Assembly (NCBI RefSeq): GCF_002858765.1 | Contig: NZ_PJRP01000010.1 | Span: 62,001-126,000 of the forward strand | Length of the DNA stretch: 64,000 nucleotides | Reading direction: 5' to 3' | Source: Cupriavidus pauculus | Lineage (GTDB): Bacteria > Pseudomonadota > Gammaproteobacteria > Burkholderiales > Burkholderiaceae | In this document: one piece after another, positions 24,423 through 29,454 of the stretch | Layout of the letters: the number at the start of each line of letters is the position of its first letter | Position numbering within the stretch: the stretch's first letter is position 1 | The notes under the pieces: generated by a model | What the model was told of the DNA's origin: nothing | The model's database searches: none | What the model saw: the letters and a program-made list of their open reading frames with translations, nothing else | Made by a program: the position numbers and the translations under genes

Positions 24423-24962
24423 ATGCCTGCCGCCACGCCAGCCGCTTCCGCCCAGACTCCAGCCACGCCACCACGCACGCCCCCGCTGGGCCGCCGCCTG
24501 CTTTGCATGCTCTATGAAGGCGTGCTGCTGTTCGGCGTGCTGATGCTCGCCAGCGCCGTCTCGGTCCTGGCCCGCCCGCTGCTGGTGCAGCTTGGGCTGA
24601 ATCACGTGTACGTCGACCAGGTCTGGATGTTCGTCGTCCTCGGGGTCTACTTTTCGTGGTTCTGGCAGCGCAACGGCCAGACACTGGCGATGCAGACCTG
24701 GCGCATCCGCCTGGAGACGGGCGCCGGCCAGACGCCGGGCTGGCCCAAGGCGATGCTGCGCTACGTGCTGGCCTGGCTGTGGCTGCCGCCTGCGGCAGCC
24801 GTGGGACACGCGATGGGCCTCACCCTTTGGCCATTCATCGGCGTACTGACCGCCGGGCTGTTCATTTGGATGTCTCTGGCCTGGCTCGATCCGAGCCGCC
24901 AGTTCCTGCACGATCGCCTGGCCGGCACCCGCCTGACCGACCTGCGCCCGCTGCAGCCATGA
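24423..24962 (+). CDS. RDD family membrane protein
   Basis: 179 aa. After an Ala/Pro/Thr-rich cytosolic start, the RDD signature begins with RRLLCMLYEGVLLFGVLML (helix 1). Two or three further hydrophobic helices include VWMFVVLGVYFSWFW. The QTLAMQTWRIRLE motif and the C-terminal DPSRQFLHDRLAGTRL, typical of the family, are present. RDD proteins are putative transporters or membrane accessory proteins of unclear role. Its stop overlaps the start of the next gene (ATGA). Confidence 0.85.
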   Translation: MPAATPAASAQTPATPPRTPPLGRRLLCMLYEGVLLFGVLMLASAVSVLARPLLVQLGLNHVYVDQVWMFVVLGVYFSWFWQRNGQTLAMQTWRIRLETGAGQTPGWPKAMLRYVLAWLWLPPAAAVGHAMGLTLWPFIGVLTAGLFIWMSLAWLDPSRQFLHDRLAGTRLTDLRPLQP

Positions 24963-25960
24963 GCCTGACGGCCGCCGCCCTGCGTCGCGTCGCCGTGCTG
25001 GTACAGACGACGGCGGCGTGCGGATTGGCGGCCTGGCTGGCACTGGGCCACGGCTGGGCATGGGCGCCGGCACTGGCCGCAGGTCTGGCCGCCGTCCTGC
25101 TGGCCTTCGGCGCCAGCGTTGCGATGGCATTCGGCACCACGCTTGGCGGCCTCGGCATCCCACGCAGAGACCGGCTACCGCTACCGGACCAGGCGCCCGC
25201 GCGTCACCGCCTTGGCACAGGCGCCGCGCTGCGCTGCTATCTGGCCGAATGCCGGGCTGTCTTCCGCATGTTCAACTGGCTGCAGCCATTCCGCTCGCGG
25301 CTGACCCTTGCGCAGCCGCCTCGGCCCCTGCCCGATACGCCTCACGTATTGCTGGTACACGGCTACGGCTGCAACCACGCTGTCTGGCTCGACATGGCGC
25401 CGGCGCTAGCCGCCGCAGGCTACTGCTGCGAAGCCATCGATCTGACGCCGGTGCTTGGCGACATCGACGACTACGCCCCGCCGCTGCTGGCGCGCATGCG
25501 CGAGATGCAGGCGCGCACGGGCCAGGCCCCACTGCTGGTGTGCCACAGCATGGGCGGACTGGCCGCACGCGCCGCGCTGGTGCTGGCGGAACAGGCCGGC
25601 GGCGGCGCGCCCTGCGCGGGCATCGTCACGCTGGGCAGTCCGCACCAGGGCTGCGCGCTGGCGCGCTTCGGCAGCGGCGTCAATGCGCGGCAGATGCGAT
25701 GGCAGAGCCCATGGCTGACCACTCTGGCCGCCGCCGAGACCCCGGCGATGCACGCGCGCATCGTTTCGGTTTTCAGCTGGCACGATTCCATCGCCGGCCC
25801 GCCGGGCACGTCGTGGCTGGACGGCGCGCAGCACCTGGCGCTCGACGGCATCGGCCATGTGTCGCTGCTGCGCGACCCGCGCGCCACGCAGGCCACGCTT
25901 GCGGCGCTGGCCATGCTCCAGCGGCAACCCGCCGCCACAGCCATCGGCGCGACCCACTAG
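24959..25960 (+). CDS. Lipase-like alpha/beta hydrolase with N-terminal membrane segments
   Basis: 333 aa. The first about 60 residues contain two hydrophobic stretches (QTTAACGLAAWLALGHGWAW and ALAAGLAAVLLAFGASVAMA), anchoring it in the membrane. The alpha/beta-hydrolase core starts at VLLVHGYGCNHAVWLD (oxyanion region), with the nucleophile elbow CHSMGG (the first Gly of the usual GxSxG replaced by Cys). LGSPHQG is present, and a likely catalytic histidine lies in GHVSLLRDP near the C-terminus. It resembles triacylglycerol lipase-type enzymes. It overlaps the RDD gene by 4 nt and is just upstream of the phospholipid-remodelling-like genes. Confidence 0.82.
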   Translation: MSLTAAALRRVAVLVQTTAACGLAAWLALGHGWAWAPALAAGLAAVLLAFGASVAMAFGTTLGGLGIPRRDRLPLPDQAPARHRLGTGAALRCYLAECRAVFRMFNWLQPFRSRLTLAQPPRPLPDTPHVLLVHGYGCNHAVWLDMAPALAAAGYCCEAIDLTPVLGDIDDYAPPLLARMREMQARTGQAPLLVCHSMGGLAARAALVLAEQAGGGAPCAGIVTLGSPHQGCALARFGSGVNARQMRWQSPWLTTLAAAETPAMHARIVSVFSWHDSIAGPPGTSWLDGAQHLALDGIGHVSLLRDPRATQATLAALAMLQRQPAATAIGATH

Positions 25961-25986: not shown

Positions 25987-26026
25987 GCTTCATGTGACAT
26001 TCATGTTTCCGTCACGGCTCCGTCAT
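25987..26026 (+). promoter_or_regulatory. Tandem Pho-box-like half-sites
   Basis: Four 7-bp units start at 25987, 25998, 26009 and 26020, exactly 11 bp apart: GCTTCAT, CATTCAT, CCGTCAC and CCGTCAT. All share TCAT or TCAC at their 3' end. The PhoB consensus is CTGTCAT-N4-CTGTCAC. The last two units differ from it at one base each, counting either permitted end base (T or C), and the outer two are weaker. The array sits directly before the metallophosphoesterase gene and overlaps its upstream ATG candidate at 26025. Confidence 0.65.
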
Positions 26027-26069
26027 GCGGCGCTGGCTCAATGCAGCCATCGCCGACACCGGGGCCACC

Positions 26070-27065
26070 ATGGTTCAAGCCATCCGATCTGCACGCGGGA
26101 GTTTGTCGAGGGTTGCGCAGCGTTTGCGCGGCAAGCCTGACACGACGCTCTCGATGTCTGCCGCCTTTGCGGCGTTCATGCCGCCGCAAGCCGATCTGCC
26201 CCCTGCCCGCGCCACCCCCCTGCAAGACACCGCCGACGCCGGCACCCGCCCCGTGGCCGCCGGAGAACCTTCCGCGCACCGCTACCGCGCCATCTGGCTG
26301 TCCGATATCCACCTGGGCACGCCGGGCTGCCAGGCCACCTATCTGCTCGACTTCCTCAAGCACAACGACTCGGACGTGCTCTACCTGGTGGGCGACATCA
26401 TCGACGGCTGGCAACTGCGCCGTGGCTGGTACTGGCCGCAGAGCCACAACGACGTGGTGCAGAAGCTGCTGCGCAAGGCGCGCAAGGGCACCGAGGTGAT
26501 CTACATCCCCGGCAATCACGACGAAGGCGCCCGCCAGTTCGACGGCCTGGCCTTCGGCGACGTCAGCGTGCGCGAAGACGCCGTGCATGTGACGGCCACC
26601 GGCAAGCGGCTGTGGGTGGTGCATGGCGACCTGTTCGACGGCGTGGTCCAGCATGCCAAATGGCTGGCCTACCTGGGCGATTCGCTCTACACGATGATCC
26701 TGGCGCTGAACCGACACTTCAACCGCGTGCGCGCCCGGCTGGGATTCGACTACTGGTCGCTGTCCCAATACCTGAAGCACCAGGTCAAGAACGCAGTGAG
26801 CTACATCAACTCGTTCGAGCACGCGATGGTGGACGAGGCGCGCCGCCGGGGCTGCGATGGCGTGGTCTGCGGCCACATCCACAAGGCCGAGATCCGCGAG
26901 GTGGACGGCCAACTCTACTGCAACGACGGCGACTGGGTGGAAAGCCTTTCGGCGCTGGTGGAGACCATGGAAGGCGAACTGAAGATCGTCTACTGGACCA
27001 CGCTGATCGATCCCCCGGAGCCGGCCACCCGCCGGCGTCGCCGGACTGCCGAGATTGCGGCCTGA
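26070..27065 (+). CDS. Metallophosphoesterase, PlcP-like phospholipase C (often annotated UDP-2,3-diacylglucosamine diphosphatase)
   Basis: A calcineurin-type phosphoesterase with all metal motifs: SDIHLG (D79, H81), GDIIDGW, GNHDE, VHGD and GHIHKAE. The C-terminal CNDGDWVESLSALVE segment is, from memory, characteristic of alphaproteobacterial PlcP, which cleaves phospholipids to diacylglycerol when phosphate is short. The family is related to LpxH, hence the common annotation. Its pairing with a glycosyltransferase and DgkA, and the Pho-box array in front, favour the PlcP role. I chose ATG 26070 because the ATG at 26025 overlaps the Pho box; that longer start would add 15 residues. About 70 N-terminal residues before the domain are poorly conserved in appearance. 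Confidence 0.75.
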   Translation: MVQAIRSARGSLSRVAQRLRGKPDTTLSMSAAFAAFMPPQADLPPARATPLQDTADAGTRPVAAGEPSAHRYRAIWLSDIHLGTPGCQATYLLDFLKHNDSDVLYLVGDIIDGWQLRRGWYWPQSHNDVVQKLLRKARKGTEVIYIPGNHDEGARQFDGLAFGDVSVREDAVHVTATGKRLWVVHGDLFDGVVQHAKWLAYLGDSLYTMILALNRHFNRVRARLGFDYWSLSQYLKHQVKNAVSYINSFEHAMVDEARRRGCDGVVCGHIHKAEIREVDGQLYCNDGDWVESLSALVETMEGELKIVYWTTLIDPPEPATRRRRRTAEIAA

Positions 27066-27230
27066 TCGCGGTCTGATCGCCGCCCGATCGATGCCTGATG
27101 AAGCCTGACGGTGCCGGGTGCACGGTCCCGTCAGGTACGCGAGCCACCGCCAGTCCGCAGCGCCCCGCGGCCTGCCTGGCGTGGGCCGCCACCCCACAAC
27201 ACCACGGCGCAGCCGCCCCAAGGAGCCTCA

Positions 27231-28349
27231 ATGAGAGTCATGATTGTCACCGACGCGTGGGAACCGCAGGTCAACGGCGTGGTTCGCACGCTGAAGTCGA
27301 CCCGCCGCGAACTCGAAGCCATGGGTCACACGGTGGATCTGCTCACCCCGCTGGAATTCCGCACGGTGCCCTGCCCGACCTATCCGGAGATCCGCCTGTC
27401 GATCCTGCCGGCCACCAAGGTCCGCCGCCGCATCGACACCTTCCAGCCGGATGCCCTGCACATCGCCACCGAAGGCCCGCTGGGGCTGGCCGCGCGCGCC
27501 TACGCCCTGAAGCATCGGCTGCCGTTCACCACCGCCTATCACACGCGGTTTCCGGAATACGTGCAGGCGCGCTTCGGCATGCCGCTGGCATGGACCTATC
27601 GCTTCCTGCGCTGGTTCCATGGCCCGGCGCGTGCCGTCATGGCCCCGACCCCGGTGGTGCTGAAGGATCTGCACGACTACGGCATCACGCACGGCGTACT
27701 GTGGACGCGCGGCGTGGACCTGGACGTCTTTACCGCGCAGCGAGCAAACGTTTTAAACACCGCACATCCGATCTTCCTTTACGTGGGCCGCGTTGCCGTC
27801 GAAAAGAACGTCGAAGCCTTCCTGCAGCTCGACCTGCCCGGCTCCAAGTGGGTGGTGGGCGATGGCCCTGCGCTGGCCACGCTGAAGGCGCGCTATCCCA
27901 CGGCCAACTACCTCGGGGTGCTCAAGCAGCCTGAACTGGCGAAGGTGTATGCTTCGGCAGACGTCTTCGTGTTTCCCAGCAGGACCGATACCTTCGGGCT
28001 GGTTCTGCTGGAAGCACTGGCCAGTGGGCTGCCTGTGGCGGCGTACCCGGTGACGGGTCCGATCGACGTACTGGGTGACAGCCCCGCCGGCGTGATGCAC
28101 GAAGACCTGCGGGAGGCCTGCCTGGAAGCGTTGCGCATCGACCGCGCAACCGCACGTGCCCATGCGGAGAAGTTCTCGTGGCGCGCGGCATCCGAGCAGT
28201 TCCTTGCGCATCTGCGTCCGTTGCCCAGCGCGGCGGACGAATCCGACCACCCGGAATCTTCCGTCGCACCCGCTCATGGCCAAACCCCAACCCACGCTAC
28301 CGCCCGATCCGTCGCTGCATCGGCCGACCGCCACCCGGGTGGCGGCTGA
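27231..28349 (+). CDS. GT4-type glycosyltransferase, Agt-like (glycolipid synthesis candidate)
   Basis: 372-aa GT-B fold glycosyltransferase. The N-terminal acceptor domain begins MRVMIVTDAWEPQVNGVVRT. The donor domain includes FLYVGRVAVEKNVEAFLQ and the E-x7-E-type motif SRTDTFGLVLLEALASG. It resembles SQD2/Agt enzymes that add sugar to diacylglycerol. The ATG at 27231 has AAGGAGCC upstream. It follows the PlcP-like gene by 165 nt. The last roughly 25 residues are read through the start of dgkA in another frame (74-nt overlap) and do not look like part of the enzyme fold. The acceptor is inferred from context only. Confidence 0.8.
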   Translation: MRVMIVTDAWEPQVNGVVRTLKSTRRELEAMGHTVDLLTPLEFRTVPCPTYPEIRLSILPATKVRRRIDTFQPDALHIATEGPLGLAARAYALKHRLPFTTAYHTRFPEYVQARFGMPLAWTYRFLRWFHGPARAVMAPTPVVLKDLHDYGITHGVLWTRGVDLDVFTAQRANVLNTAHPIFLYVGRVAVEKNVEAFLQLDLPGSKWVVGDGPALATLKARYPTANYLGVLKQPELAKVYASADVFVFPSRTDTFGLVLLEALASGLPVAAYPVTGPIDVLGDSPAGVMHEDLREACLEALRIDRATARAHAEKFSWRAASEQFLAHLRPLPSAADESDHPESSVAPAHGQTPTHATARSVAASADRHPGGG

Positions 28350-28773
28350 AGTGGAAACCGAATATTCGATCGCCAACAATCCGCACAAGGGCAACCGCGG
28401 CCTGACGCGCGCCTGGCATGCCGCGATCAACTCGCTGTCGGGCCTGCGCTACGCGGTGCTCGAAGAAAGCGCGTTTCGCCAGGAACTGACGCTGGTGGTC
28501 ATCCTGACGCCATGCGCGTTCATCCTGCCGGTGTCCGTGGTCGAACGCGTGATGCTGCTGGGCACGCTGTTGCTGGTGCTGATCGTGGAACTGCTCAATT
28601 CGAGCGTGGAAGCGGCCATCGACCGGATCTCGCTGGAACGCCACAGCCTGTCCAAGCGCGCCAAGGACTTTGGCAGCGCCGCGGTGATGCTGGCACTGAT
28701 CCTGTGCGGCGGCACGTGGATAGCGATCGGCGGCCCGCACGTGGTGCGCTGGATCGGGATGCTGCTGAACTAG
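28276..28773 (+). CDS. dgkA: Diacylglycerol kinase (prokaryotic DgkA)
   Basis: 165-aa integral membrane kinase phosphorylating diacylglycerol to phosphatidic acid. After a soluble N-terminus of about 40 residues come AWHAAINSLSGLRYAVLEESAFRQE, three membrane helices, and the catalytic signature LLVLIVELLNSSVEAAIDRIS. KRAKDFGSAAVML follows. Start uncertain: ATG 28276 overlaps the glycosyltransferase gene by 74 nt and has no clear ribosome binding site; GTG codons at 28339 and 28351 would avoid most or all of the overlap. In this context it could recycle diacylglycerol released by the PlcP-like enzyme. Confidence 0.93.
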   Translation: MAKPQPTLPPDPSLHRPTATRVAAEVETEYSIANNPHKGNRGLTRAWHAAINSLSGLRYAVLEESAFRQELTLVVILTPCAFILPVSVVERVMLLGTLLLVLIVELLNSSVEAAIDRISLERHSLSKRAKDFGSAAVMLALILCGGTWIAIGGPHVVRWIGMLLN

Positions 28774-28820: not shown

Positions 28821-28849
28821 AACGCCGCCATCGCTGGCGGCGTTTTCTT
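28821..28849 (+). terminator. Rho-independent terminator after dgkA
   Basis: The stem AACGCCGCC/GGCGGCGTT (28821-28829 and 28836-28844) with a 6-nt loop is followed by TTCTTAT. It lies between convergent dgkA and the LOG gene, so it may serve both. Confidence 0.9.
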
Positions 28850-28869: not shown

Positions 28870-29454
28870 TTACGTCTTCTCGCGTCCTGCCTGCCACTTG
28901 TCCACGCGCACGCGCGGCGCGGCGGCCAGCTGGCCGAGCAGATCCTGCGACGATGCCGATACGTGCAGCATGTCGGCGTGTACCTGCTTCAGGAATCCCT
29001 CGCCCACGGCGTGATTCAGGAAGGCCAGCATGCCGTCGTAGAACCCGGCCACGTTGAGCAGGCCCACCGGCTTGTCGTGATAGCCAAGCTGGGCCCACGT
29101 GAAGGTCTCGAACAGCTCCTCGAACGTGCCCACGCCGCCGGGCATGGCGATGAAGGCGTCAGAGCGGTCAGCCATCATCTGCTTGCGTTCGTGCATGTTG
29201 CGCACCACGTGCAGCTCGGTCAGGCCGCGATGGCCCACTTCCTTCTGCATCAGCGCGTCGGGAATCACGCCGATGGCCGTGCCGCCGTGCGCCATCACGC
29301 TATCGGCCACGATGCCCATCAGCCCCACCTTGCCACCGCCGTAGACCAGCGCCAGGCCCTGCTCGGCCATGGTCTGCCCCAGTGCCTTGGCCGCTTCGGC
29401 ATATTCCGGCCGGAAGCCGGGGCTGGAACCGCAATACACGCAAACGGATTTCAC
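28870..29454 (-). CDS. LOG family protein (TIGR00730, cytokinin riboside 5'-monophosphate phosphoribohydrolase-like)
   Basis: 194-aa Rossmann-fold protein with SVCVYCGSSPGFRPEY at the N-terminus and the family motif PGGVGTFEELFE at about residues 105-116. LVYGGGKVGLMG forms the nucleotide-binding loop. LOG proteins hydrolyse nucleoside monophosphates to free base and ribose 5-phosphate. The physiological substrate in bacteria is often unclear. Its ATG overlaps the stop of the TetR gene upstream by 4 nt. Confidence 0.92.
   Translation of the reverse strand: MKSVCVYCGSSPGFRPEYAEAAKALGQTMAEQGLALVYGGGKVGLMGIVADSVMAHGGTAIGVIPDALMQKEVGHRGLTELHVVRNMHERKQMMADRSDAFIAMPGGVGTFEELFETFTWAQLGYHDKPVGLLNVAGFYDGMLAFLNHAVGEGFLKQVHADMLHVSASSQDLLGQLAAAPRVRVDKWQAGREKT

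Follow-up and report, generated by a model that had tools for sequence, protein, structure and literature searches.

The locus described here lies in a stretch of 64,000 nucleotides of Cupriavidus pauculus (Burkholderiaceae; assembly GCF_002858765.1, contig NZ_PJRP01000010.1, positions 62,001 to 126,000), hereafter the window, in which genes for a metallophosphoesterase, a glycosyltransferase and a diacylglycerol kinase follow one another behind an array of four Pho box units. Judged from its sequence and from that of its relatives, this locus is very probably a PhoB-controlled plcP-agt-dgkA operon for membrane lipid remodelling, and its best reading is that of a Burkholderiales variant of the known plcP-agt pathway. 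A sequence-only reading of the same DNA had proposed a phosphate-controlled module turning phospholipids into glycolipids; the order and the families of the three genes are as it described, and the proposal is supported by a tree and profile scores that set the phosphoesterase apart from LpxH (UDP-2,3-diacylglucosamine diphosphatase), by arrays in 56 of 56 examined loci of the genus, by a twin array before an olsB-like gene and by likeness to a gene pair of Pseudomonas aeruginosa. The features are the following.

25987 to 26026, plus strand: Pho box array, four 7-bp units ending in TCAT or TCAC at 11-bp steps (pattern counts and genus conservation).
26033 to 26045, plus strand: conserved block GCTGGCTCAATGC after the array, a candidate promoter or leader region (genus conservation).
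26070 to 27065, plus strand: plcP, metallophosphoesterase, predicted intracellular phospholipase C (profiles, motifs, tree and kinship; longest frame from 26025).
27231 to 28349, plus strand: agt, GT4 family glycosyltransferase, predicted diacylglycerol glycosyltransferase (profiles and kinship to the P. aeruginosa glycosyltransferase).
28276 to 28773, plus strand: dgkA, prokaryotic diacylglycerol kinase (profile; its ATG at 28276 sits 74 bp inside agt).
28821 to 28844, no strand assigned: terminator-like hairpin with a 10-bp stem between dgkA and a convergent gene, likely the operon end (terminator scan).

The units of the array, GCTTCAT (25987), CATTCAT (25998), CCGTCAC (26009) and CCGTCAT (26020), succeed each other at a step of exactly 11 bp, and all four are read in the sequence as had been claimed. 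Their arrangement is rare. Indeed, TCAY-N7-TCAY-N7-TCAY has two matches in the window, both within the array, against a mean of 0.04 in shuffled sequences (n = 100), and across the 7.40-Mb genome of 38 contigs it matches 14 times, at 12 places, against 2 for the reversed control; the four-unit pattern is found at exactly two places genome-wide, the plcP array and the array before the olsB-like gene (control 0). With the consensus CTGTCAY-N4-CTGTCAY, which is of the E. coli type, one site of the window scores at least 12 of 14, and this site is the plcP array. A Pho box sequence in print is CTGTCATNNNNCTGTCAT (PMC8528852).

The array is also conserved. The plcP gene was found in 59 of 60 Cupriavidus genomes, and a TCAY array lies 5' of it in each of the 56 upstream regions examined (out of 60 places, G048, G049, G052 and the second G041 place being omitted as partial matches or near contig starts). 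Four units are present in 49 of these loci, three in a single one, which has lost the fourth, and two in the remaining six, in which the third is degenerate and the fourth still in register. The T, C and A positions of the array hold about 1.9 of 2 bits, the 55 bases upstream average 0.28 bits, and the information content climbs sharply at the array edge. The sequence 3' of the array is likewise conserved (1.37 bits), which is not creditable to PhoB alone because this stretch includes the leader and the start ATG 26070. The longest plcP frame opens at ATG 26025, within the fourth unit; ATG 26070 appears the likelier start, since it is located in a block conserved across the genus. Elsewhere in the genome (G000), a three-unit TCAY array at contig C11:42998-43023 (L012) begins 169 bases upstream of a lipoprotein-like frame; this frame carries a PHP-like motif and possibly encodes another phosphate-controlled phosphatase.

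The regulators are present in the genome, which encodes PhoB (346.4 bits, cut-off 296.2) and PhoR (445.7 bits, cut-off 334.2) in addition to PhoU, PstB and PstS, with a Pho box of 13/14 upstream of pstS. The olsB-like acyltransferase gene behind the other four-unit array (G000 contig C38:49864-50801; L014, L072, L185) shares its contig with ppx, ppk, phoR, phoB, phoU, pstB and pstS and is near them. Its product is best matched by models of the OlsB enzymes of ornithine-lipid synthesis, at 165.6 bits (E 1.6e-48), which is under their cut-off of 320. The array before this gene was found in all 30 genus loci examined, out of 61 places, with four units in 27 and two in 3. Pho boxes preceding olsB have been published for Burkholderia sensu lato (PMC7814305).

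Regarding the phosphoesterase, it is not LpxH. Against the LpxH models it scores 35.6 and 29.6 bits, below the cut-offs of 134 and 190.35, and the search for a second, canonical LpxH that the sequence-only reading had proposed returned one on another contig (C34; 295.9 and 243.7 bits), the window protein thus being no sole candidate. The tree proposed along with it places 51 PlcP-like rows opposite 15 LpxH rows, with a Shimodaira-Hasegawa-like approximate likelihood ratio test (SH-aLRT) value of 100, and the window protein groups with the P. aeruginosa and Sinorhizobium meliloti PlcP loci; this is a quick tree without bootstrap, with long branches, in which the deepest row among the PlcP-like ones is from Thioclava (36% identical), and its PlcP-like rows were chosen by hand (including 24 of 30 offered phylum loci, from 102 matching genomes). 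GNHD is present in 50 of the 51 PlcP-like rows, the window protein included, and all 15 LpxH rows have GNRD. On the low profile scores, the canonical LpxH elsewhere, the split of the tree and the GNHD motif, LpxH is rejected as the identity of this protein, and the refuting outcome that the sequence-only reading had named for the sequence, a lone LpxH clustering with true LpxH, did not come about. The metallophosphoesterase ligand motifs D-x-H, GD, GNHD, H and GHxH are all present in it. In a fold search with a predicted model (mean pLDDT, the predicted local distance difference test, 76.9, residues 122-140 and 164-176 being of low confidence; used as fold evidence only), the nearest structures were LpxH at ranks 1-19, with a template modelling (TM) score of about 0.5 and 16-20% identity. 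An LpxH-like fold is as expected for what would be a sister family acting on lipids. The sole match among solved structures searched by sequence was a Vps29 chain (E 0.0043). As the sequence-only reading had supposed, relatives bear the name UDP-2,3-diacylglucosamine diphosphatase in public databases: the PlcP-like proteins of P. aeruginosa (L167, L168), Mitsuaria (L170) and Sphingomonas (L216) carry this annotation (e.g., WP_003091510.1), and the misnaming of PlcP-like proteins as LpxH is apparently widespread.

Among known systems, the closest is plcP-agt1 of P. aeruginosa (PA3219-PA3218), in which plcP is likewise followed by a GT4 gene and preceded by a Pho box (PMC8528852). In the P. aeruginosa loci compared here (L167, L168), which come from a plasmid collection and are labelled plasmids, the Pho box reaches 12/14 by the same consensus score, and the two proteins are 53.6% (PlcP) and 52.5% (glycosyltransferase) identical to those of the window, or 51% each over full-length alignments. 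The P. aeruginosa unit differs by having no dgkA: a convergent adenylate cyclase gene comes next, CyaB in one record, a gene order that is the layout of PA3219-PA3218-PA3217, PA3217 presumably being cyaB. Pho boxes have been reported in P. aeruginosa; under phosphate stress, the glycolipids monoglucosyl-diacylglycerol (MGDG) and GADG are reduced or lost when plcP, agt1 or agt2 is deleted, and plcP and agt1 mutants have no MGDG (PMC8528852). P. aeruginosa also differs by a second glycosyltransferase, Agt2 (PMC8528852). No close paralog of agt was found in the Cupriavidus genome, the next match reaching 36 bits, and therefore no counterpart of Agt2 is evident. The S. meliloti PlcP is 51% identical to that of the window and on the same side of the tree; however, no glycosyltransferase is listed beside its gene, the listed neighbours being a LuxR-type regulator and an acyl-homoserine lactone synthase, both upstream, and a major facilitator superfamily transporter. 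From the sinI/sinR locus numbers, we take this gene to be SMc00171. SMc00171 has been termed a phospholipase C among Pho-regulon genes (PMC3596328). Methylosinus trichosporium plcP-agt and the PlcP of SAR11 and roseobacters share with our locus a PlcP with a GT4 enzyme, Pho boxes and low-phosphate glycolipids, but they belong to Alphaproteobacteria and no link to dgkA is seen in the excerpts of the two reports (PMC9239053, PMC4796936). Finally, olsB of Burkholderia sensu lato shares the regulator logic and a phosphorus-free membrane lipid as product, and the window genome has an olsB-like gene with its array; the product is, however, an ornithine lipid that needs neither PlcP nor diacylglycerol, and the excerpts of that study do not mention a plcP-agt operon (PMC7814305). 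Published accounts of PlcP, with or without Agt, concern S. meliloti, Agrobacterium, roseobacters, SAR11, P. aeruginosa and Methylosinus (PMC3972451, PMC4796936, PMC8528852, PMC9239053). We found no report of PlcP-Agt in Burkholderiaceae in the open-licence PubMed Central literature, and the words Betaproteobacteria, Burkholderia, Ralstonia and Cupriavidus do not occur in the main text of PMC4796936.

Beyond the genus, a search of 150 family genomes detected the PlcP protein in 123, representing 16 of 25 genera, and a sample of 299 genomes drawn over the phylum had it in 102; the nearest named proteins among the matches listed are from Cupriavidus sp. D384 (99%) and C. pauculus (98%), and a relative in Cupriavidus necator A5-1 (L224) is 91% identical. 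We examined 44 family loci from 15 genera, namely the window locus and 43 hand-picked from other genomes and genera (genus g23 being omitted, its match broken by stops). At least two TCAY units lie within 900 bases upstream in 39 of them, those of L106 at a chance-looking place; a glycosyltransferase accompanies plcP in 42 and dgkA is downstream in 36. For 21 representative loci, the observed consensus score was reached by at most 1 of 200 shuffles in 14. A further set of 80 named loci, the best 80 of 587 confirmed stretches, covers genera including Cupriavidus, Ralstonia, Burkholderia, Paraburkholderia, Caballeronia, Trinickia, Pandoraea, Polynucleobacter and Thiobacillus. The observed score is reached by no more than 1 of 100 shuffles in 59 of 79 of these and by no more than 5 in 72 (one locus with fewer than 150 bases upstream being left out of this count); a glycosyltransferase follows plcP in 77 of 80, and dgkA is present downstream in 64 and missing there in 10, the contigs of the other 6 ending too early to tell. 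A different arrangement was seen on the Mitsuaria sp. 7 plasmid NZ_CP011515.1 (L170): its plcP has a Pho box of 12/14 upstream, and the genes that come after it are ppk1 and a Ppx/GppA gene in place of a glycosyltransferase.

The following mechanism can be proposed. At low phosphate, phosphorylated PhoB would bind the four-unit array and turn the operon on. PlcP, by its kinship a metal-dependent phospholipase C built on the LpxH fold, would cleave phospholipid into diacylglycerol and a phospho-headgroup yielding phosphate, and Agt would add a sugar, most likely glucose as for P. aeruginosa Agt1, to the diacylglycerol to give a phosphorus-free glycolipid. More speculatively, DgkA might return surplus diacylglycerol to phosphatidic acid and act as a valve on this intermediate. 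Because the same type of array precedes the olsB-like gene, ornithine lipids would rise too, as a parallel arm.

It is possible, although unlikely, that the pair is phosphate-controlled but that the acceptor or product of the glycosyltransferase is another lipid (phosphatidylglycerol, ceramide or a lipid-linked sugar) rather than glycosyl-diacylglycerol. The two best curated models of the agt product are both glycolipid enzymes and both score below cut-off, the first being N-acetylglucosaminyl phosphatidylglycerol synthase (81.8 bits, cut-off 480), which would suit such an alternative, and the second alpha-monoglucosyldiacylglycerol synthase (66.2 bits). Moreover, ceramide is the acceptor of two GT4 enzymes that belong to the PhoB regulon of Caulobacter (PMC6445935). 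Against this, the window protein is 52.5% identical, over 325 residues searched, to the glycosyltransferase beside P. aeruginosa plcP, whose mutant has no monoglucosyl-diacylglycerol (PMC8528852), and the glycosyltransferase is paired with a predicted diacylglycerol-releasing enzyme in those 77 of 80 named loci. The solved-structure chains matched by sequence, sucrose-phosphate-synthase-like and tetrahydrobiopterin-glucosyltransferase, are uninformative on the acceptor. From the relation to P. aeruginosa Agt1, we would expect monoglucosyl-diacylglycerol as the product.

A second alternative, which we hold to be improbable, makes the operon mainly a housekeeping one around DgkA, slightly modulated by the array, and leaves lipid replacement to ornithine lipids alone. 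It takes support from dgkA being single-copy, the sole match in the genome to the prokaryotic diacylglycerol kinase family (such a kinase is present in 128 of 150 family genomes, mostly one each and two in about two dozen), from the comparable array before the olsB-like gene, and from Paraburkholderia xenovorans, which is stated to swap phosphatidylethanolamine for ornithine lipids at low phosphate (PMC7814305, as data not shown there). However, the array adjoins plcP and is retained in loci whose spacing and flanks drift, plcP-glycosyltransferase pairs without dgkA occur elsewhere, namely in the P. aeruginosa and Sphingomonas loci, and the P. aeruginosa pair yields glycolipid under phosphate stress (PMC8528852). 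Least probable of all is a role of the phosphoesterase as a further LpxH-like enzyme of lipid A, with the array governing lipid A or envelope synthesis, for the protein's weak LpxH model similarity, the LpxH folds closest to it, the public annotation of its relatives and a divergent homolog with GNRD (L122) are outweighed by scores far under the curated cut-offs, a canonical LpxH already in the genome, the SH-aLRT split, GNHD in place of GNRD and a P. aeruginosa counterpart that functions as PlcP (PMC8528852).

Several observations nevertheless weigh against a PhoB-controlled remodelling operon. When the four-unit pattern is run over 60 genus genomes, simple tandem repeats match it as well, and in 20 of the 60 its reversed control gives matches too. 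A consensus scan of the region found no sigma-70-like promoter. Related loci share ancestry, so that counts over loci are not independent observations. Among the 21 representatives, 7 have no significant box (g4, one of two from g16, g15, both from g12, and the divergent L122 and L124), of which the g4 locus has a four-unit array despite its non-significant consensus score and g12 is a small-genome genus, Polynucleobacter-sized. L122 (G139, same family) encodes a 64%-identical PlcP-like protein with the LpxH-type GNRD and has no box, glycosyltransferase or dgkA nearby; a change of function is possible there. The glycosyltransferase is under every curated cut-off, and acceptors vary among GT4 enzymes. 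Finally, of the 74 named loci that extend far enough downstream, 10 lack dgkA there, and its placement may be accidental, the gene being a housekeeping one, because it is the only family match in the genome.

Co-transcription of plcP, agt and dgkA is plausible, since the dgkA ATG lies inside agt and a terminator-like hairpin comes after dgkA; the scan of the region gave 2 terminator-like sites against 1.2 expected in shuffles. This hairpin (28821-28844) is terminator-like on both strands, separates dgkA from a convergent LOG-type gene (28870-29454) and could end both. Another hairpin, at about 27103-27136 between plcP and agt, was rejected as a part of the operon: its z-score is -1.36, 18 of 200 shuffles fold as well, and by eye no such hairpin is seen in the corresponding gaps when the other 55 loci of the genus are compared. 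Upstream of the array, the alpha/beta-hydrolase (lipase-like) gene at 24956-25960 is real, but the suggestion that it is a partner of the module did not hold, given its position 5' of the array and a relative close to plcP in only 13 of 80 named loci. Such relatives were seen near plcP in named loci of Cupriavidus, Ralstonia, Pandoraea and Pigmentiphaga, and in no named locus of Burkholderia or Paraburkholderia.

A broader proposal, to which we give a little less than an even chance, is that PhoB of Burkholderiales drives a three-enzyme hub for diacylglycerol: PlcP would release it, Agt would fix it in glycolipid, and DgkA, the only one of the cell and induced on the same transcript, would convert the excess back to phosphatidic acid. 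With olsB behind its twin four-unit array, the family, which includes the freshwater Polynucleobacter, would have two phosphorus-free lipid arms in parallel, so far masked by the LpxH name. If the remodelling operon is what it appears to be, records named UDP-2,3-diacylglucosamine diphosphatase, for instance in P. aeruginosa, are PlcP-like, and name-based surveys may therefore miss them. The link to dgkA makes the balance of diacylglycerol between glycolipid and phospholipid testable. In P. aeruginosa, mutants without glycolipids survive polymyxin B less well (PMC8528852). Should the remodelling reading hold, glycolipids would replace phospholipids at low phosphate in many Burkholderiaceae as well. 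These bacteria abound in soil, on plants and in fresh water, and their membranes in such natural settings would not be the same as in cultures supplied with plenty of phosphate.

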